DNA of 64,000 nt from a virus, in IMG/VR virus record IMGVR_UViG_3300034782_000062, positions 62,001-126,000 of that record. One strand, written 5' to 3'. Below, one piece after another: positions 2,012 through 42,160 of this stretch. The position numbers were made by a program, and so were the translations under genes. The notes below the pieces were generated by a model. The model saw only the letters and a program-made list of their open reading frames with translations, was not told the DNA's origin and made no database searches. Within the stretch, counting starts at the first letter, position 1, and each line of letters starts with the position of its first letter.

Positions 2012-2075
2012 GACTCTGTTTTCTCCTCTGAAACATTGTTTTGTGGTATACGACTTTCGGCTTTGTGTGATTACT

Positions 2076-2090
2076 TCGTCTTCAGGACGA
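2076..2090 (-). repeat. Dispersed palindrome copy, variant loop
   Basis: Arms TCGTC/GACGA are separated by five bases (TTCAG on plus). It lies 65 bases upstream of the minus-strand gene starting at 2011, so the element also serves minus-strand genes. Confidence 0.5.
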
Positions 2091-2347
2091 TTAGCCCGAA
2101 AGTACGTCTTGGGGATGGATATGTCAAGCTGATCTCTAAAAACTTAATACTTCCCTATGGGTGTGGTCATGTACGTGACTACCACCATCCGTGTACCACC
2201 CCTGCAGCGGGTCGGGACCGGTGATCATCTCGGGCGATCTCAGGCCATTTTTTGGCCAGTGAGACGACCGAAACGGCCAGTGAAAGTGCCCGCTCGGGCC
2301 GCGCCGAGCCCCCCATGAGCCGTTTCGAGACCCGTTCACTGCGCGTT

Positions 2348-2427
2348 GGTCAGTGATTTTGGTCAGTGATCACTGAGCAAATTGGTTACTGAACCGCGAC
2401 TGAGCAAAGGTCAGTGAGGGTCAGTGA
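2348..2427. repeat. GGTCAGTGA iteron-like cluster
   Basis: Four exact GGTCAGTGA units (2348-2356, 2361-2369, 2409-2417, 2419-2427) plus a near copy GGTTACTGA (2384-2392). The second unit runs into its own inverted copy, giving the palindrome TCAGTGATCACTGA. Related GGCCAGTGA words occur slightly upstream. Spacing is irregular, so operator sites for a repressor are as likely as replication iterons. Confidence 0.6.
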
Positions 2428-2445
2428 CCGCTTCGCCAGGTTCGA

Positions 2446-2465
2446 GCCCGGTCCTGGGGACGGGC
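2446..2465 (-). repeat. Dispersed palindrome copy on the minus strand
   Basis: Read on the minus strand: GCCC-GTCC-CCA-GGAC-(C)-GGGC. The CCA core matches the family on that strand and the stem is extended by four G-C pairs. It is about 430 bases from the nearest start codon, unlike most copies. Confidence 0.45.
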
Positions 2466-3070
2466 GCCGTGGGCTCCCGTGCGCTGACCGTGCGTTCTCC
2501 CCCGGCTTCCCCAGGGTTCCCCCAGGGCTCCCCTACGGGGAGCCCTGGTGTGCCGTGGGCCAACCCGCGTGATTTCGAGCACTTAGGCGTCTGCGCCCTG
2601 GGAGCTGACCGGGATAGGATGGCACGGGGCTTGCATTGGGCGCGGGCATCGGTGGGCGATTCCCGGCGATCGTGGTACACTCCCCGTGGCCGGGTGTGAT
2701 ATGCCCCGTAGGTGCCCGTAATCATTGGCGAAAAAAAATATCAAAAAAAGGGGTTGCAAACCGTTCAAACGGGCGTAGAATCATCATACCCCCTCTCGTA
2801 TGCGGGGGGGCGGGGGCCACGCCCCCAGGGTCATTGACAACCAAGCGGGCCACGGCGGAGCAAGCTAGGGCTCCCCTCGCCCGTCCCTCGCCCCTGGCAC
2901 CGAGAGGTGCTAGCCCCCGTCTGCGCGGGGGTTTCCCACGGCTCCCGTCGTGGCCTGGTGGTTCCGCCACCAGAGGGGCGCGGAGACGTCCCCCTCGCGG
3001 GCGCGACGTTGCACACTACCTCAACCATCCCAACTAGCGCGCAGTCTGTCACAGTGGCGCTAGCGCTCCC

Positions 3071-3093
3071 TCAGTCATCCCCAGGATGATTGA
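3071..3093 (+). repeat. Dispersed palindrome copy with extended stem
   Basis: Inner arms TCATCC/GGATGA surround CCA. The outer TCAG/TTGA adds four more pairs including one G-T. The C-to-T change in the left arm is matched by the G-A partner in the right arm, so pairing is kept. Confidence 0.6.
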
Positions 3094-3219
3094 AAGCGCT
3101 GGTCCGTATGGTCGGCGTAGCTTGCGCGTTGCGTCGTGTACTCTGGATTAGGGTGCACCGTTGCGCGATCTGGCTTAGTCCCTGACAGAACAACGTTAGC
3201 ATTGTCCCCTTCCCCCTGG

Positions 3220-3293
3220 GCACGCTCGAAAGGGCGTGCTCAGGTTTGGAGCCTCGAAGCGAAACAGCGTTTCGAGGTTGCAAACCTGAGCAC
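3220..3293 (+). promoter_or_regulatory. Nested 5' leader hairpins before the DUF2997 gene
   Basis: A perfect 13-bp stem (3236-3248 with 3281-3293) encloses a 7-bp inner stem (CCTCGAA/TTCGAGG). A second hairpin (GCACGC 3220-3225 with GCGTGC 3234-3239) shares bases 3236-3239 with the large stem, so the two cannot form together. Mutually exclusive stems directly upstream of a ribosome binding site (AGGAGGGAC, 3311-3319) are what an attenuator or translational switch looks like. No known riboswitch class is recognised. Confidence 0.5.
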
Positions 3294-3324
3294 ACCGCTC
3301 AGTGCAGGACAGGAGGGACAAAGC

Positions 3325-4255: not shown

Positions 4256-4371
4256 CCTATTGCTTCACAATCAAATCGTCATGAGTCGCCGCAAGGCGGC
4301 TCAACAGTGCGTCAAAGTCTGCACGATTTTGGCGTACTGTTGAGTCACTTTCTGGCTCAAATGGAGGGACA

Positions 4372-6108: not shown

Positions 6109-6133
6109 ATCGATCGTCCCCAGGACGGTCGAT
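6109..6133 (+). repeat. Dispersed palindrome copy with long stem
   Basis: ATCGA-T-CGTCC around CCA pairs with GGACG-G-TCGAT: two perfect 5-bp blocks separated by one mismatch. It lies just after the AAA gene and immediately before tRNA-like element A. Confidence 0.6.
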
Positions 6134-6135
6134 CC

Positions 6136-6203
6136 TCTCCGGCAAATGTGGTTCAATCGTCCCCAGGATGATTGAGCGGGTTCGACCCCCGCGTCGGAGA
6201 CCG
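6136..6203 (+). ncRNA. tRNA-like element A (no D arm)
   Basis: An 8-bp closing stem (TCTCCGGC 6136-6143 with GTCGGAGA 6193-6200, one G-T pair) directly abuts a canonical T arm (GCGGG-TTCGACC-CCCGC, 6176-6192). Where D and anticodon arms would be there is a 9-base linker and one long hairpin (6153-6175) made of a palindrome copy with a CCA loop. The bases after the closing stem are CC. The T-loop and acceptor geometry are tRNA-like, but no 7-base anticodon loop exists, so this is not a decoding tRNA. It lies 45 bases before the next start codon. Confidence 0.55.
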
Positions 6204-6247
6204 GGAAACAACAGCCGGCAATGTATCAAGCCGGCAGGAGGGACAAC

Positions 6248-7324: not shown

Positions 7325-7326
7325 GC

Positions 7327-7393
7327 GCACGGCAAAGCAAGGATCGAACGTCCCCAGGACGGTCGAGCGGGTTCGACTCCCGCGCCGTGCCCC
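7327..7393 (+). ncRNA. tRNA-like element B (no D arm)
   Basis: A perfect 7-bp closing stem (GCACGGC 7327-7333 with GCCGTGC 7384-7390) abuts a perfect T arm (GCGGG-TTCGACT-CCCGC, 7367-7383). The rest is a linker and one palindrome-type hairpin (7344-7366), as in element A. The stem sequence differs completely from element A while the T arm is nearly identical, so structure and T loop are what is conserved. The 3' flank is CCC. No anticodon arm is present. Confidence 0.55.
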
Positions 7394-7425
7394 AAATCAT
7401 CCCCAGGACGAAGCGAACGGGACGC

Positions 7426-7465
7426 AAAAAGCGCGAGGCTGGCTCGACCGGCCCGCGCTTTTTTT
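7426..7465 (+). terminator. Rho-independent terminator
   Basis: An A-run, then GCGCG, an inner stem GGCTGG/CCGGCC, CGCGC and a run of seven T. It ends the transcript that carries the AAA/DUF1257 module. Confidence 0.85.
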
Positions 7466-8396: not shown

Positions 8397-8415
8397 GCGT
8401 CCCCAGGATGGACGT
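8397..8415 (+). repeat. Dispersed palindrome copy, shifted pairing
   Basis: GCGTCCCCAGGA is conserved. The strongest pairing here is CGTCC with GGACG shifted three bases downstream, giving a 7-base loop. It is 18 bases before the ATG at 8433. Confidence 0.5.
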
Positions 8416-20409: not shown

Positions 20410-22146
20410 ATGTCCAGAACCATCGTTTTCAATTTTGGAGGCCGTGCACCAACAAAAAACGCACAGCTCGTTCATGACAACATCTACCACGGGCACAACT
20501 ACTACAATAAGCTCATCGAGCTAGAACGTTGTTACCGCAAGGCAATTCGCGCAGCCCAAGCCGAGTTCCCGGAGATCGCAAAAGCTCAGGCACTCTTCGA
20601 TAACGCTGAAGAGGCTGTTGACGGATTGATCGCGCTAAAAAAACTAGCCAAGTCAAGCGACTCAAGTATTACTCCACCAACGCCCGATGAAATGAAAAAG
20701 GCTGTTGCCGAAAAGAAGGCGGCGGCTGCAGCTCTCAAAGACGCCAAGGCCCCTCATGCTGATTCATTGCAAACCAAATACAAGGCAGCCAAGGATGAGC
20801 TAACGGCATCTATAAAAAAGGCTCGATCCGAGACCGAAACTTTCTGGGGAACCTATCTGTGCATCGAGCGAGCGTTTCAGCAAGCCAAGAAAGCAAAGCC
20901 TATTTTTAAGCCTGGCAAAAAGCGCCCCCCATGGACCGAACGGCCAGCGTGGCGAAAATGGACAGGCCATGGTGTTGTTGGCATGCAAATTCAGAATGGG
21001 ATGCCAGCAGAGAACCTGTTCAAACCTAACACGAGATGTTACATAGATCCCCTTCCAGCCAATGCGTACAACACGAACATTCCCCGTGGCCAACGCCGCA
21101 AGATGCAATACACAACCATCCATTTGCGCGTAGGATCTGAAAACAGAAAACCCATATGGGCTGACATCCCCGTTTACCTGCACCGGGGCTTTCCTGCTGG
21201 CGCGATTGTCAAATGGGTATGTGTTATCCGAACCCCATGGCATCAACATCAAGCCTACAAATGGCAGGTACAAATCACTCTTGAGGTCCCCGACGCTTTT
21301 CCAAAAACCAACAAAAAAGCCGTTGCCATTAATTTAGGTTGGCGCAAACTAGCCGATGGATCCCTTCGAGCAGCCACCTGGGTGGATACTGACGGTCAAT
21401 CGGGCGAGATTATTCTAAGCGACAAGGAATTCAGAGATCGTATTGAAAAATACAACAACCTACGATCGATTCGAGACAAACTGATCGATGAAATCCGGCC
21501 TAAGCTCATCATGTCCGGCATCAACTGCGCCAAATGGAAAAGCCCCGACTCTTTTCAAAAACTTTCTCGTCGCGAAGACTTAACCGACGAACAGAGCGCA
21601 ATTTTGAAACCCTGGGCCTACAAAGATAGGCATCTCAATTGGTATGCCCGTGGTGTAAAAAATGGCGCCCTAAACCACCGGCGCGATGTCTATCGAAAGT
21701 TCGCTCTTTACATAGCGACAAACTACGACATCATCATCGCCGAAAAATACGACATGAAGAACATTGTCGAAGACGAAGATCGGAAAAGAGGTCCAGCGGG
21801 TCAGCGGGTTGAAGCTGCCCCATCCATTGCCAGGCAGATCATCGGCAGCACCGCGACACGGCTCGGGTGTCACATTATCGAGGGCCAAACCACATATGCA
21901 ACCCAAGAGTGCTTTTTTTGCGGTTGCACAGAGCCATGGGATGCCTCTGGTAACATCATGCACACCTGCCAGGAATGTGGTGAACATTGGGACCAGGACA
22001 TCAACAATGCCAAGAACATGCTCGCGAGAGCCGCTGATGCAATCAACTCCCTGGACCCGCTCGCACCTAAAAAGTCAAAGAATTACGGATGGAAATCGGT
22101 ACAAGAAAAGAAAAAACAAGGAGATAACGAAGACCACACTGATTAA
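20410..22146 (+). CDS. cas12m: Cas12m-like type V CRISPR effector, probably nuclease-dead
   Basis: 578 residues; ATG 20410 behind AAGGAGGCAACAA. The length and segments match Cas12m (type V-M, formerly V-U1/C2c4) as I recall the Mycolicibacterium protein: an N-terminal region with a long helical pair, then RuvC-I VAINLGWR, KWKSP..F, KDRHLNWYARG..., RRDVYR, RuvC-II IIAEKYDM, a CX2C-X15-CX2C zinc ribbon (C501, C504, C520, C523) and RuvC-III WDQDINNAKNML. RuvC-I has Asn308 where active nucleases have Asp; Glu445 and Asp528/Asp530 are kept. Cas12m is known to process its own crRNA, need no tracrRNA, and silence DNA by binding. The array starts 64 bases downstream. The gene is visibly more AT-rich than its neighbours, suggesting transfer. 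Confidence 0.85.
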   Translation: MSRTIVFNFGGRAPTKNAQLVHDNIYHGHNYYNKLIELERCYRKAIRAAQAEFPEIAKAQALFDNAEEAVDGLIALKKLAKSSDSSITPPTPDEMKKAVAEKKAAAAALKDAKAPHADSLQTKYKAAKDELTASIKKARSETETFWGTYLCIERAFQQAKKAKPIFKPGKKRPPWTERPAWRKWTGHGVVGMQIQNGMPAENLFKPNTRCYIDPLPANAYNTNIPRGQRRKMQYTTIHLRVGSENRKPIWADIPVYLHRGFPAGAIVKWVCVIRTPWHQHQAYKWQVQITLEVPDAFPKTNKKAVAINLGWRKLADGSLRAATWVDTDGQSGEIILSDKEFRDRIEKYNNLRSIRDKLIDEIRPKLIMSGINCAKWKSPDSFQKLSRREDLTDEQSAILKPWAYKDRHLNWYARGVKNGALNHRRDVYRKFALYIATNYDIIIAEKYDMKNIVEDEDRKRGPAGQRVEAAPSIARQIIGSTATRLGCHIIEGQTTYATQECFFCGCTEPWDASGNIMHTCQECGEHWDQDINNAKNMLARAADAINSLDPLAPKKSKNYGWKSVQEKKKQGDNEDHTD

Positions 22147-22209: not shown

Positions 22210-22922
22210 GTCACAAAGGCTATCTCTACAGCCTATGAGTAGAGACATGTAGACGCTTCGCAAACATTCTGTCCTCAAAGGGGTCACAAAGGCTATCTCT
22301 ACAGCCTATGAGTAGAGACAAGTTAGAATTCTTGATCAAAATGCTTCCATTGTTAAGGTCACAAAGGCTATCTCTACAGCCTATGAGTAGAGACGGATAA
22401 ACAGCATCGTAAACTCCACCCTCTGACAGGTCACAAAGGCTATCTCTACAGCCTATGAGTAGAGACAGGACGAGAGGCCGCTGAGGAGCGAGATGTGCGG
22501 GCACGAGTCACAAAGGCTATCTCTACAGCCTATGAGTAGAGACCGGAGCAAGCCCAGGATGTACTCGTGCTCGAAGGACGAAGTCACAAAGGCCATCTCT
22601 ACGGCCTATGAGTAGAGACATCGGTTGTCTTCCTCTGTAAACGATATTTCCCGTCCTGTCATAAAGGCCATCTCTACGGCCTATGAGTAGAGACACTGTA
22701 GAGTAGGGCAGTCCGGTTCCGTTAGCTACGTCCGTCACAAAGGCTATCTCTACAGCCTATGAGTAGAGACTTGCTCCATTCTGAACCGAACCAAACTTGC
22801 GCCTTGGTTGTCATAAAGGCCATCTCTACGGCCTATGAGTAGAGACAGCCCAACTTCAGCACTGGTTCGAGCCGCCGATAGGTGTGTCATAAAGGCCATC
22901 TCTACGGCCTATAAGTAGAGAC
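22210..22922 (+). CRISPR. CRISPR array, 10 repeats of 37 bp and 9 spacers
   Basis: Repeats start at 22210, 22283, 22358, 22430, 22507, 22583, 22658, 22734, 22810 and 22886. Spacers are 35-40 bp. Each repeat begins GTCA(C/T)AAAGGC and ends GAGTAGAGAC. Repeats 1-5 and 8 read AGGCT...AGCCT, and repeats 6, 7, 9 and 10 read AGGCC...GGCCT: a compensatory pair. The last repeat has an extra G-to-A change, marking the distal end and giving the same direction as cas12m. A possible pseudoknot pairs positions 8-12 with 21-25 and 15-20 with 30-35. No cas1, cas2 or tracrRNA is nearby. No spacer match inside the window was noticed by eye. Confidence 0.97.
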
Positions 22923-22973: not shown

Positions 22974-23639
22974 ATGACCAATGAATTCGAGCGAATACTC
23001 CCCCCCGAGGTTGCCGCCGCCGTCCAAACCGGCAGGGCGTCCCTCATGGGCGGACTCATCCAGAGAATCAAGGATGGCAAGGAACAACTTTCGGCAGAGG
23101 ACCAATCAGAGATACTCGCATTGGTCCAAGACCTCATCAACGAGGGCCAGTCCGACAAGTCCCTCATTGAGGAGTCCGAGGCGCAACTCAAGAACCTCAC
23201 CGAAAACGTCAAGGGCACCCTCAAACTGGTAACGGAGCTGACCGAGCACATGCACCAGCTCAGGCTCTCACCTGACAAGCGCCATCTTCAGGACGACTCG
23301 ATCGAGAAATCCTGCAGGCGCGACCTCGAAGAGCACCACGACAAGATTCTTCGAGCCAAGCTCGTCATGGGCTACCGTGGCAACGACTCCGTCGAGGTCA
23401 CCTGCGACCCCCCGGCGCTCGTCCGGGTGACGCAGAAAGACGACGGCCAGTTCATCAACTGGACGACTCACGATTTCGCGGATCCGAACTGGGACGTCGA
23501 GCTTGTAAAGCCACATCCTGCTCTTGAAGGCGTCCGCTCTCTGTGGGTCGATGGCATCAGCCGATCGAGGACGGGAGAGGTTGAGCACCCCGACTGGGAG
23601 ATCGTTTCCAAGGGCTCGCTCAACGCAGATGTTCCTTGA
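22974..23639 (+). CDS. Hypothetical protein after the CRISPR array
   Basis: 221 residues; ATG behind ACAGGAGGTACAAC. Residues 1-95 are helical with heptad-like spacing (LKNLTENVKGTLKLVTELTE), and residues 130-215 are beta-rich with several tryptophans. No Cas family is recognised. GC content returns to that of the phage, so it is probably an ordinary phage gene and not part of the CRISPR system. Confidence 0.6.
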   Translation: MTNEFERILPPEVAAAVQTGRASLMGGLIQRIKDGKEQLSAEDQSEILALVQDLINEGQSDKSLIEESEAQLKNLTENVKGTLKLVTELTEHMHQLRLSPDKRHLQDDSIEKSCRRDLEEHHDKILRAKLVMGYRGNDSVEVTCDPPALVRVTQKDDGQFINWTTHDFADPNWDVELVKPHPALEGVRSLWVDGISRSRTGEVEHPDWEIVSKGSLNADVP

Positions 23640-23689: not shown

Positions 23690-23717
23690 TTGACAGCCCC
23701 CTAGGGGGTGTTATTCT
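23690..23717 (+). promoter_or_regulatory. Sigma70-type promoter with palindromic operator in the spacer
   Basis: TTGACA (23690-23695), a 16-base spacer and TATTCT (23712-23717). The spacer contains CCCCCTAGGGGG (23697-23708), a perfect 12-base palindrome placed where a repressor or a MerR-type activator would bind. Transcription would start near 23724, inside a gene-free stretch. Confidence 0.7.
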
Positions 23718-23723
23718 TTCTGT

Positions 23724-24018
23724 GGGATTTGTAAAAGCCAGTGATGAGGCGATAGAGTCGGTCCCCCCCCATCGACTTTGTCGCCTCATCCATTTAAAAC
23801 GAAGGGAACAAGGTTCGAGGGCTGATACCGGCCCGCCACAACGAAGCGCTTCGTTCAAAAAAAGGACCCATAAGACTCGCGGGGGCGCGTATGCACGCAA
23901 CGCAAACCCTCCCCCCCGACGAAATGGCCAGCGCGCCGGTGTCAGCCTTCGGCCCTTGCCCCCGGAACCTGTCCCCCCAGTGCCCCTCGGTTTGCTGCAG
24001 CCGAGGGGCACACTTTTT
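23724..24018 (+). ncRNA. Candidate small RNA, about 295 nt, with C-rich loops
   Basis: It is bounded by the promoter at 23690 and an intrinsic terminator ending at 24018. No convincing gene lies between; an open frame from GTG 23722 has no ribosome site. A strong 5' hairpin (23743-23752 with 23781-23790, inner stem 23755-23760 with 23773-23778) presents a loop of eight C (23763-23770). Further C tracts are at 23907-23917 and 23973-23978. C-rich loops in bacterial regulatory RNAs commonly pair with Shine-Dalgarno sequences, and this phage uses GGAGGGAC sites. The targets are inferred, not shown. Confidence 0.55.
23980..24018 (+). terminator. Rho-independent terminator
   Basis: A perfect 11-bp stem GTGCCCCTCGG/CCGAGGGGCAC around TTTGCTGCAG, followed by ACTTTTT. 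Confidence 0.85.
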
Positions 24019-24027
24019 AAGGGGTGA

Positions 24028-24098: not shown

Positions 24099-25385
24099 AT
24101 GAGGACGAGCGACAGCGCTCTTGAACAGTACGAAGAATGTCCAAGGCAATACGACCTGGAGCGCAACCAGAAAAAGCGTGGGAAGCCAACCGCTCCCATC
24201 CGGCTCGGCAGAGTCGTTCACCGAACAATTCAGAAGCTCCTCAAGAAGTACAAGGAAGCGGGAGAGGCCAAGCCCTTCGACGCTTCACTCGCCTCCGACA
24301 TCTACACCGAGGAATGGGGGAAGGAGCTGGGTCTGAGCGGCAAAGAGCTTTTTACCGACGGACTGCAGATCGTCGCCGACTGGGTTGAGAAGTGGAGCAT
24401 CCCTCTCGACCCCCACTCCATCCTCGGCATCGAGGAGCCCTTCAAGTTCACCATTGAGTATCGTCCCCAGGATGATGAGTATGATGACGAGGAGGAAGAG
24501 GAAGAGACGGCGATCGAGCCCAGCAACCTCATGCCCGTGGAGGTTGTCGGCTACCTAGACCTTGTCCTCGGACACGATCTAGTAGACGAGGAGACGGGCG
24601 AAGTCGAGACTCTCATCGAAGTCATCGATTGGAAGACGACCAAGGCGTTTCTCACGAGCCGGGACGCACAAGAGTCGCTCCAACTCTCCATCTACGATCT
24701 CGCCGCTCGCGAGAAGTGGCCTGACGCCAGGGCCTACCGCGCCGCACTCAATCTGCTGCGTGACGGCACTCACCTTCAGGTTCGCCACAGCACCGCCGAG
24801 CGCCGCGACACCGAACGATACATCCTGGCGACGGCGGCTCAGATACGCGACGAGCGAGAGTGGGCTCCACGGCTCAACTCCAACTGCACCTACTGTCACC
24901 ACCGCCACGACTGCCCCGCCTACCAAAAAGCCCTCAAGGGCGACAGCCACACCGTCGCCGAGGACATGAATGACTTTGACAAGCTCATCGAGGAGCGTGC
25001 TGCGCTTGCAATCCGAAAGAAGATCGTCGGCAAGCGGCTCGACGAAATCGACGACGTCATCAAGGCACACCTCAAATCATCCAAACACCCGCTGGAGATC
25101 GGCGGCTGGTTCTTCAAGCTCTCATCTGTCGAGCGAAAGAACTATCCAGCCGACGTCGTCATCCCACTGCTCGCTCACAAGTTCGACATAAGCCCCGCCG
25201 AGCTGCTCGCCGACCTGACGACTGTCTCCACAAAGAAGCTCAAGGAGCTGATGAAGACCAAAGCCGAAGAGCTTGGGCGCGAGAAGGTCAGCCTCGTACA
25301 AGCCACCCTTGAAAGCAAAGCCGAACGCAACTACTCCTCTCGGCTGTACAACCGAAAGGAGAAGAAGCCCAAACCCAAGAAATAG
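24099..25385 (+). CDS. PD-(D/E)XK nuclease, RecB/Cas4-like with Fe-S cysteines
   Basis: 428 residues; ATG behind ACAGGAGGGAAATTCATC. The start SDSALEQYEECPRQYDLE is the PDDEXK_1 opening with the first cluster cysteine. The nuclease core follows: GRVVH, then VVGYLDLVLG (Asp), IEVIDWKTTK (Asp..Lys) and QLSIYDLAA. The remaining cysteines CTYCHHRHDCP complete a likely 4Fe-4S site. The C-terminal 140 residues are helical. Phage members act as recombination exonucleases, often with a helicase; an SF2 helicase lies 2 kb downstream. Although Cas4-related, it is a general phage enzyme and not evidence of adaptation. A palindrome copy lies in the coding sequence near 24463. Confidence 0.8.
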   Translation: MRTSDSALEQYEECPRQYDLERNQKKRGKPTAPIRLGRVVHRTIQKLLKKYKEAGEAKPFDASLASDIYTEEWGKELGLSGKELFTDGLQIVADWVEKWSIPLDPHSILGIEEPFKFTIEYRPQDDEYDDEEEEEETAIEPSNLMPVEVVGYLDLVLGHDLVDEETGEVETLIEVIDWKTTKAFLTSRDAQESLQLSIYDLAAREKWPDARAYRAALNLLRDGTHLQVRHSTAERRDTERYILATAAQIRDEREWAPRLNSNCTYCHHRHDCPAYQKALKGDSHTVAEDMNDFDKLIEERAALAIRKKIVGKRLDEIDDVIKAHLKSSKHPLEIGGWFFKLSSVERKNYPADVVIPLLAHKFDISPAELLADLTTVSTKKLKELMKTKAEELGREKVSLVQATLESKAERNYSSRLYNRKEKKPKPKK

Positions 25386-37749: not shown

Positions 37750-38898
37750 CTACGCCGCGTGGTCAGCTACATCGTTCCCTACAAACCTCGGTATTGAGGC
37801 CGGGGCGCGCGGGCCTCGGCCAAAGTCGTTGCGGAATTTGTTGCAGACACCATCTTCCCCAAGCATAGGGCATCGCCATCCTTCTGAAGCGATGCGCTCA
37901 CACGTAATGGGTCCGCCCATAGTGCGAAGGATGTTTTCGTACTTTTTTTCTGTGGTTTCGTGATTGTAGCGGCCCTTGTCACAAGCAGATATCTTGTGAA
38001 AGAGCGCTCGGCCACCATGAGGGTCGTAGCACGCGAGATTCGCTGCCAACGCGATCCATTCGAAGTACGTGAGCCCACTCTCGCAGGCGTACTGAATGAA
38101 CTCGCAACCGCCAATGATCATGTCGAGGTCACTGGCGTTGCTGTCCTGAAAACTCTCTCTCCCATCGAAGGACCCACCTCGGCTTCTCTTCGCCGGGCTG
38201 TCCTCCAGCACATCCAACCTTCCGATTTCTCCAAGAGCATCAACCACGTCCAGCCGATTTACTGGATCGTAAAGCTCGATCATATCCCACGTCGGCTCGC
38301 CGAGAGGGACGGTATTGAACTGCTGATCGAGCAGCATAGAACCGTTTCGTGTATTCGCCGCTTCCATGTTGAGCGGCATGGCTATCTGGTTACCGATCGA
38401 TCGGCCACCAGGCAGCGTGTCTTGTGTTGGGAAAATTCTATCGAGTGCGCCACCCTCACCAAGGGTCGGCAACTCGCACATCTCTATAAACGCCTCCATG
38501 AAGCGCCTGGCCACCCAGACCTCCATGGGCTTCAAGTCGCCACGAGGGTCGTCAAAGATGATGCGAACGTGAACGCCACGCCCTGACTGGCTGGTGTTGC
38601 ACAGGGGGTCGATCCCGTACTCTCTAAAAGTGTCAGCGAGGGCCTTTGCGTGTTCGAAGGCGTTACCGTGATGACCATCGAAGTCAGCGGCAACCCACTC
38701 GCAGGTTCCGTCAGCCAAGAAGGGATAGGCACCAATCATGATATCGCCCTTCATATGTCGGACGATTACGTCGTTAGTTAGCTTGTACTCGGGAAGGCGC
38801 CGTGGTCTGTAGCTTCCATCAGCGATACGAAAAGCGTATACATCCGGTCGACCACAGAAAAATCTTTTAAAATAGAAGAGCTTCTCTTTCGGAACCAT
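37750..38898 (-). CDS. Archaeo-eukaryotic primase (TOTE type)
   Basis: 382 residues; ATG behind GGGGGAGGGG. FFCGRPDVYAFRIADGSYRP at the N-terminus, the catalytic VAADFDG (D-x-D) near residue 71, the SQSGRGVHVRIIF motif near residue 105 with its histidine, and FPTQDTLPGGRSIGNQIAMP near residue 160 match the AEP primase domain described in TOTE conflict systems. A PriCT-like helical C-terminus follows. AEP primases make RNA or DNA primers. Position with the helicase suggests phage replication rather than conflict. Confidence 0.75.
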   Translation of the reverse strand: MVPKEKLFYFKRFFCGRPDVYAFRIADGSYRPRRLPEYKLTNDVIVRHMKGDIMIGAYPFLADGTCEWVAADFDGHHGNAFEHAKALADTFREYGIDPLCNTSQSGRGVHVRIIFDDPRGDLKPMEVWVARRFMEAFIEMCELPTLGEGGALDRIFPTQDTLPGGRSIGNQIAMPLNMEAANTRNGSMLLDQQFNTVPLGEPTWDMIELYDPVNRLDVVDALGEIGRLDVLEDSPAKRSRGGSFDGRESFQDSNASDLDMIIGGCEFIQYACESGLTYFEWIALAANLACYDPHGGRALFHKISACDKGRYNHETTEKKYENILRTMGGPITCERIASEGWRCPMLGEDGVCNKFRNDFGRGPRAPASIPRFVGNDVADHAA

Positions 38899-41583: not shown

Positions 41584-41708
41584 GCTTCCGCAGGCACCCA
41601 ACAATCGCCTGAAACACGTCACGACAGAATTTTAAAACCCCCCGGTCAAAAAGAATGCAGATCCCCCCTCGTTTGGTGTTGGGTCGTCGGCTGCTCTGAG
41701 TGTGTCGT

Positions 41709-42060
41709 TAAGATTTAAGTAAGTCGTACATGCCTAGTAGTATGATGCCCCTAACTAAGAGCAAAAGCCTAGGTACTGTTACTTAAAGATCTTAGGGGCA
41801 TGAAATACTTGAACAGTGTTCTTGGTATTTTAATCAGCAAGTAGTAGGCCAGACCTTGCTAAGAAAAGGACATGCTGGAGCTGTCAGCAGGGCTGAGGTC
41901 CCCACTGAGGTTTGAGCTAAGCAGAAGCCCCTTGTGCTGAACTTGGGGTCGACCACTAACCTTTCGGGGAGCTGAAGACCGAGAGGGTTGCTGTCCCAGA
42001 CCCCCAGATTGCTAAAGGGAGAGGCAGAAACATTTCGGAGAGCTAGAGACCCGAGGGTTG
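41709..42060 (+). ncRNA. Candidate large structured non-coding RNA
   Basis: This is part of a 577-base stretch (41584-42160) without a gene. A strong helix (41739-41743/41805-41809 extended by ATGCCCCTAA 41745-41754 with TTAGGGGCAT 41792-41801) competes with TAAGATTTAAGT (41709-41720) pairing with 41781-41794. ACTGTT/AACAGT (41775-41780 with 41812-41817) could form a pseudoknot. Two similar 30-base units (41961-41990 and 42031-42060), both with TTTCGG-GAGCT and ending GAGGGTTG or GGGTTG, lie 70 bases apart. A large ornate phage RNA (ROOL/GOLLD style) is possible but untested. Confidence 0.5.
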
Positions 42061-42086
42061 TCAGTCATCCTGACGATGCAAAAACC

Positions 42087-42142
42087 TTGACGTTGCAGAT
42101 GCCATATTGCAGAATGGCGCCATCCCAAAACCGCAACGTCAA
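42087..42142 (+). promoter_or_regulatory. Hairpin and possible promoter before the 42161 gene
   Basis: TTGACGTTGC (42087-42096) and GCAACGTCAA (42133-42142) form a perfect 10-bp stem. TTGACG with a 17-base gap to CAGAAT (42110-42115) also reads as a weak sigma70 promoter. If both work, the -35 box lies in an operator-like arm. No clear ribosome site precedes ATG 42161 apart from GAGGTAGG. Confidence 0.35.
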
Positions 42143-42160
42143 AACGCGAGGTAGGTCAAA

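Follow-up and report, generated by a model that had tools for sequence, protein, structure and literature searches.

We describe, in a large, unclassified bacterial virus, a stand-alone unit whose predicted RNA is probably a regulatory RNA of the phage. The window, i.e. the whole stretch of 64,000 nucleotides analysed here, comprises positions 62001-126000 of virus record IMGVR_UViG_3300034782_000062 (182,770 bases); the unit occupies window positions 23690-24018 on the plus strand, where, as in a stand-alone small RNA (sRNA) gene, a promoter and an intrinsic terminator of its own lie on the same strand, ~300 nt apart, and flank a stretch without coding signal. Support at the level of sequence covers the promoter, the terminator, the absence of a coding signal, the fold and the exposure of a run of eight C (C8), and the original prediction of a stand-alone unit for a non-coding RNA has good support from the sequence. 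Our preferred reading, which we put forward tentatively as a real possibility, treats the unit as a stand-alone gene of the phage that encodes a stable, structured and untranslated RNA of ~295 nt. This RNA would act in trans, with C8 as a seed for a G-rich partner. The unit is built as follows:

23690-23717, plus strand: sigma-70-type promoter TTGACA-N16-TATTCT, with TG one base before the -10 element (TGn)
23697-23708, no strand assigned: perfect palindrome CCCCCTAGGGGG within the promoter spacer, a possible operator
23724-24018, plus strand: predicted non-coding RNA of ~295 nt, fold z -9.45, without coding signal and without Rfam family
23743-23790, plus strand: hairpin P1, 23743-23762 paired with 23771-23790 in 20 unbroken pairs (3 G-U), its loop being exactly CCCCCCCC (23763-23770)
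23804-23963, plus strand: central domain P2, with closing helices of 18, 5 and 3 bp (23804-23832 with 23935-23963) and smaller helices inside
23973-23978, plus strand: C6 tract upstream of the terminator, partly paired
23980-24018, plus strand: intrinsic terminator, a 13-bp stem (23980-24011) followed by ACTTTTT

The promoter ranks first among all window positions on both strands when scored with a sigma-70 weight matrix, and both the good promoter and the spacer palindrome that had been predicted are indeed present. An exact match to the palindrome CCCCCTAGGGGG is found nowhere else in the 182,770 bases of the record. A scan of viral contigs with the pattern TTGACA-N0-4-CCCCTAGGGG matched 21 contigs with 19 distinct sites: a -10 hexamer stands at a spacing of 16-18 in eight of the 19, compared with 0-3 at other offsets. 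Because the -10 element lies at the correct spacing in these eight sites of unrelated viral contigs, the palindrome appears to be a recurrent phage promoter design, plausibly with an operator role. In the sampled contigs such sites stand mostly upstream of protein genes, and the palindrome is therefore no marker of the unit's RNA. The contigs that carry CCCCTAGGGG in the spacer of a sigma-70-like promoter (L012, L018, L019, L022, L023, L026, L027 and L028) belong to unrelated phages, in which the element may be a recurrent phage operator; the L019 site fits a full CsoR-type operator (ATACCCCCTAGGGGGTAT). The palindrome of the unit, and only the palindrome, resembles a type 2 CsoR-family operator in having two G/C tracts with TA between them, as in the Streptomyces copZA operators, which include CCCCCTAGGGG (PMC3902906). 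However, CsoR binding requires a TAC/GTA inverted repeat (PMC3902906), whereas the phage sequence, ACAGCCCCCTAGGGGGTGTT, lacks TAC-N9-GTA around the G/C tracts. We found no CsoR-family gene in the phage record, and a CsoR operator at this promoter was rejected on both grounds.

At the other end of the unit, the predicted strong terminator proved to be by far the best uninterrupted-stem terminator of the 64-kb window, with a stem of -25.6 kcal/mol as against -10.6 for the runner-up among uninterrupted stems with a T-rich tail. Its T run begins two bases past the stem, and its efficiency may be incomplete.

The 295 bases between these signals had been described as free of genes, which we confirm with the caveat that two frames are open by chance: a GTG frame at 23722-24027 (101 aa) and a minus-strand GTG frame (192 aa). 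Scored with a model of codon usage trained on the window, they come to -0.15 and -0.26 bits/codon, respectively, compared with 0.29 +/- 0.13 for window genes. The GTG at 23722 coincides with the expected transcription start, which leaves the frame without leader or Shine-Dalgarno (SD) sequence, and the frame crosses the terminator; none of the internal ATG or GTG frames of the unit has a proper SD. Given the negative codon scores and the lack of an SD-led internal start, the stretch is non-coding by sequence, as expected of a stand-alone sRNA gene. That the unit is a short protein gene, as the frame open from GTG 23722 would allow, is extremely improbable in view of each of these properties: the codon score, the start codon placed at the transcription start without SD, the course of the frame through the terminator and the internal frames without proper SD.

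The RNA itself (60% G+C) is predicted to fold far more stably than shuffled sequence: the 295-nt plus-strand RNA reaches -146 kcal/mol (z -9.45), and none of 200 shuffles equals it. After correction for G+C, the residual of the unit is undercut by only two of 2550 other stretches of this length in the window, one that begins at 3051 and has the lowest value of all, and one on the minus strand that overlaps the unit itself. The confident parts of the predicted fold are hairpin P1, domain P2 and the terminator. P1 (pair probability 0.99) is the second-longest uninterrupted short-loop stem of the window, the only longer one being a 22-bp stem at 4298-4346; in dinucleotide shuffles of the window (one strand), the longest such stems were 12 and 13 bp in two shuffles, and the third had none of at least 12. 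In P2, the 18-bp helix joins 23815-23832 to 23935-23952 with three G-U pairs, and the closing helices have probabilities of 0.90-0.99.

The window holds further structured elements. The stretch at 4298-4346, its longest uninterrupted hairpin (22 bp that include G-U pairs, around a 5-base loop), lies between two genes. Two long gaps without called genes, 2012-3324 and 41584-42160, have strong predicted structure, the lowest G+C-corrected energy starting at 3051; Rfam gave no family for either gap, the miRNA-family scores being chance hits of long hairpins. A short hairpin with core UCCCCAGGA (once UCCCAAGGA) recurs in more than 12 copies on the plus strand between 3078 and 18403 (e.g. at 8400, 8898, 9634, 10367, 12889, 13965, 14866 and 18403). 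Its outer stem pairs vary on both sides (CG/CG, TCA/TGA, TTCG/CGAA), most copies from 8400 onward lie 25-33 nt ahead of a called start codon, just before the SD, and it is possibly a translational or processing element common to many genes. Two tRNA-like folds on the plus strand (6130-6205 and 7325-7395) have a paired acceptor stem, a normal T arm (GGGTTCGA) and no D arm, with the UCCCCAGGA hairpin in place of the anticodon arm; the second ends in CCA and is followed by a likely terminator at ~7430-7465. ARAGORN called no tRNA at either position.

The original prediction further held that runs of C are exposed in a hairpin loop and in single-stranded stretches. The unit has C runs of 8, 7 and 6, the densest cluster of runs of at least 6 in the window, and three such runs arose in 15 of 1000 shuffles. 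The claim stands for C8 (23763-23770), which is fully exposed in the predicted fold at an opening cost of 0.0 kcal/mol, and only in part for the other two: the C7 tract (23911-23917) is buried by pairing with the G-run 23881-23885 (9.6 kcal/mol), and C6 is partly paired (4.65 kcal/mol). The same holds for the three UCCC sites of the RNA (23762, 23910 and 23972), of which the one at the C8 loop is accessible and the other two are wholly or partly paired.

Exposed UCCC sites have a precedent in stand-alone bacterial sRNAs. LhrC of Listeria carries three of them, placed in loops and in an unpaired segment (PMC4132741), RsaE and RNAIII of Staphylococcus use the same motif (PMC9217828), and the UCCC sites of all three RNAs bind G-rich ribosome sites (PMC4132741, PMC9217828). 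The unit RNA resembles them as a stand-alone RNA with several UCCC sites in or near loops and single strands. In contrast to these RNAs of low-GC Gram-positives, it is encoded by a phage, has 60% G+C and shows no sequence relationship that we could find; moreover, only one of its three UCCC sites is fully exposed, and its pairing with phage starts stays at the level of shuffles. VpdS and PreS, two trans-acting phage sRNAs, offer a second comparison: they too come from phage RNA genes set apart from protein genes, and the unit RNA could likewise act on phage or host messages, but VpdS and PreS depend on Hfq and belong to Proteobacteria (PMC12197685).

The original prediction also proposed that the RNA could block translation by pairing of its C runs with G-rich ribosome sites. 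The ribosome sites of the phage are G-rich as predicted, with GGAGGG upstream of 15 of the 80 called genes, and the C-rich segments form stronger duplexes at start regions than at control positions (e.g. -11.6 vs -9.2) because SD sequences are G-rich. Target prediction, which had been suggested as a check, gave on the phage starts of the window a best pairing of -17.8 kcal/mol with paired bases masked, a value equalled by 122 of 300 shuffled RNAs; for the mean over all window start regions, 273 of the 300 matched or surpassed the unit RNA. Since shuffled RNAs pair equally well, the pairing proposal gains nothing beyond composition. In addition, the only perfect complement of GGAGGG in the RNA, CCCUCC at 23908-23913, is sequestered within the buried tract (opening ~11.5 kcal/mol), and the A of GGAGGG finds no match in the exposed C8. 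An antisense mechanism is possible and its precedent is real, and the tests made lend it no support. The best candidate partner, and the only start site suited to C8, is that of the primase gene, GGGGGAGGGG-AUG: C8 would pair with GGGG-A-GGGG, one A being bulged, at -16.8 kcal/mol, for an mRNA opening cost of ~5 kcal/mol. We regard this candidate site as a testable lead rather than as evidence for a target of C8. The genes that bear on the unit are:

20410-22146, plus strand: Cas12m effector (PDB 23vw Cas12m, E 4e-54; 8hhl Cas12m2, E 4e-25; PADLOC Cas12f/Cas12u1)
22210-22922, plus strand: CRISPR array of ten 37-nt repeats, every repeat with its own UCUCUAC...GUAGAGA hairpin
22974-23639, plus strand: open reading frame without family, between the CRISPR array and the unit
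24099-25385, plus strand: PD-(D/E)XK / Cas4-like exonuclease gene (428 aa; SD GGAGGG), 80 nt downstream of the unit
37750-38898, minus strand: primase gene (PHROG primase, E 8e-9)

The main alternative is that the stand-alone RNA binds a protein, as scaffold or decoy for an RNA-binding protein of host or phage, with C8 as the protein-binding loop. Such a role, which we rate as somewhat unlikely, would suit the large, very stable multi-domain fold, the display of a homopolymer loop on an uninterrupted 20-bp stem and the shuffle-level antisense pairing; on the other hand, the RNA belongs to no known RNA family, and its three C-rich tracts are also suited to base pairing. A different and rather unlikely reading regards the unit as belonging to the exonuclease gene at 24099, as its 5' leader or attenuator, with a terminator read through conditionally in the manner of a riboswitch or of antitermination. 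The order is classic for a leader (promoter, structured leader, terminator, 80 nt, SD, gene), and the exonuclease gene's own promoter candidate is weak (24034, rank 52, 0-based, among all window positions). However, in a model without pseudoknots or co-transcriptional folding, nothing competes for the 5' arm of the terminator as an antiterminator would, and the terminator stem has a probability near 1, so that termination looks unconditional; Rfam gave no riboswitch match, and every gene between 3325 and 34921 is encoded on the same strand, such that other transcripts could reach the exonuclease gene.

The dense inverted repeats and the uncommon palindrome could also mark a DNA element (a replication origin, a recombination site or a protein-binding site) whose palindromes mimic RNA structure, and the whole stretch folds well on both strands (-146 vs -142.9). 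We consider this very unlikely: promoter and terminator bracket the stretch on one strand, no iterons were found in it, and P1, with three G-U pairs, is far stronger as plus-strand than as minus-strand RNA (-33.7 vs -23.5). The asymmetry between strands speaks for P1 alone, because the central domain folds better as the minus strand (-80.9 for plus vs -92.0 for minus). Cas12m, the array, the frame at 22974-23639, the unit and the exonuclease gene follow one another in this order on the plus strand, and the position of the unit ~0.8 kb downstream of the array would, finally, suggest an RNA part of the CRISPR-Cas12m system (a tracrRNA, an omega-RNA-like guide or an RNA anti-CRISPR). This reading is highly improbable: 97 of 200 shuffles pair with the repeat as well as the unit RNA does, repeat-like sequence is absent from both strands of the unit, the repeat has its own hairpin, Cas12m effectors work with a single crRNA and need no tracrRNA (PMC11013384), and no counterpart by sequence lies beside the Cas12m genes of four viral loci (L002, L033, L034 and L035). 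A tracrRNA or anti-CRISPR RNA was rejected on the repeat complementarity, which is no better than in shuffles. We likewise rejected a type III toxin-antitoxin RNA: the order of promoter, RNA, terminator and protein gene recalls ToxIN-like systems, but the RNA has no tandem repeats, and the next gene encodes a 428-aa exonuclease and not a ToxN-like RNase.

Searches for relatives place the unit RNA apart from described families. The phage collection holds no relative of the unit DNA, and the phage's own record holds only the unit itself; Rfam covariance models gave no family at or above the gathering threshold, two eukaryotic hits being rejected as chance, and a tRNA/tmRNA search led us to reject either identity. 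A search with a two-sequence Cas12m alignment returned three viral loci, none of which has the unit RNA by sequence or other genes in common with the phage; genome contigs gave no Cas12m match, and virus Rctr197k shares with the phage the Cas12m gene only. Beside the four viral Cas12m genes named above, runs of at least 7 C or G are absent except for one G7. As there is neither an Rfam match nor a homologue in the collections searched, the RNA is, by sequence, an orphan that can be assigned to no family. The phage is similarly isolated, without close sequenced relatives: its window proteins have distant matches or none in the phage collection, and when five proteins of the phage, four of them neighbours of the unit, were scanned one at a time in viral contigs, no close relative appeared, only one distant helicase.

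Regarding the phage Cas12m, its first RuvC position is N (INLGWR), compared with D in the Rctr197k homologue (IDLGWR); this replacement suggests a DNA-binding, non-cleaving effector. Other viral contigs (Rctr197k, L033 and L034/L035) contain Cas12m relatives at 33-37% identity, and in L035 (3170, 3261, 5424, 6745) and L034 (1803) a dispersed repeat, GCTGGGAGGTTTAGTGATCCCAGA, surrounds the effector gene in place of a regular array.

Returning to the trans-acting RNA with a C8 seed that we favour, we infer its transcription, its action in trans, the role of C8 and the identity of a target from the features above. A single strong sigma-70 promoter, which a repressor bound to the spacer palindrome might gate, would start transcription, and the intrinsic terminator would end the RNA and separate the unit from the exonuclease gene downstream. 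The RNA would most likely act in trans much as UCCC-motif sRNAs do, the C8 loop of its rigid 20-bp hairpin offering a seed that is already exposed; its partner could be a G-rich mRNA start site, for which the primase start is the phage's best candidate, or another RNA. Against this model stand the shuffle-level pairing with phage starts, the burial of the best GGAGGG complement and the lack of a homologue in the collections searched; furthermore, antisense sRNAs are typically smaller and less stiff than a heavily paired RNA of 295 nt, which makes a protein partner plausible as well. A bolder version, which we consider distinctly doubtful, is a new class of structured phage RNA, transcribed from an operator-gated promoter, in which a rigid 20-bp stem with a C8 loop on a multi-helix scaffold captures the primase start and controls replication; the phage would thereby combine such an RNA with its Cas12m-CRISPR module and its further structured non-coding elements.

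Outside the model phages, studies of phage RNAs that possess both a promoter and a terminator of their own are, to our knowledge, few. A review lists 38 phage sRNAs without described function (PMC12197685). An orphan RNA of 295 nt with so regular a hairpin, in a phage without close sequenced relatives, offers a clean object for asking whether uncultured phages steer replication or host by large RNAs: should the pairing of C8 with the primase start prove true, the phage would control its replication through an RNA; otherwise, the unit would add one more unclassified phage sRNA.
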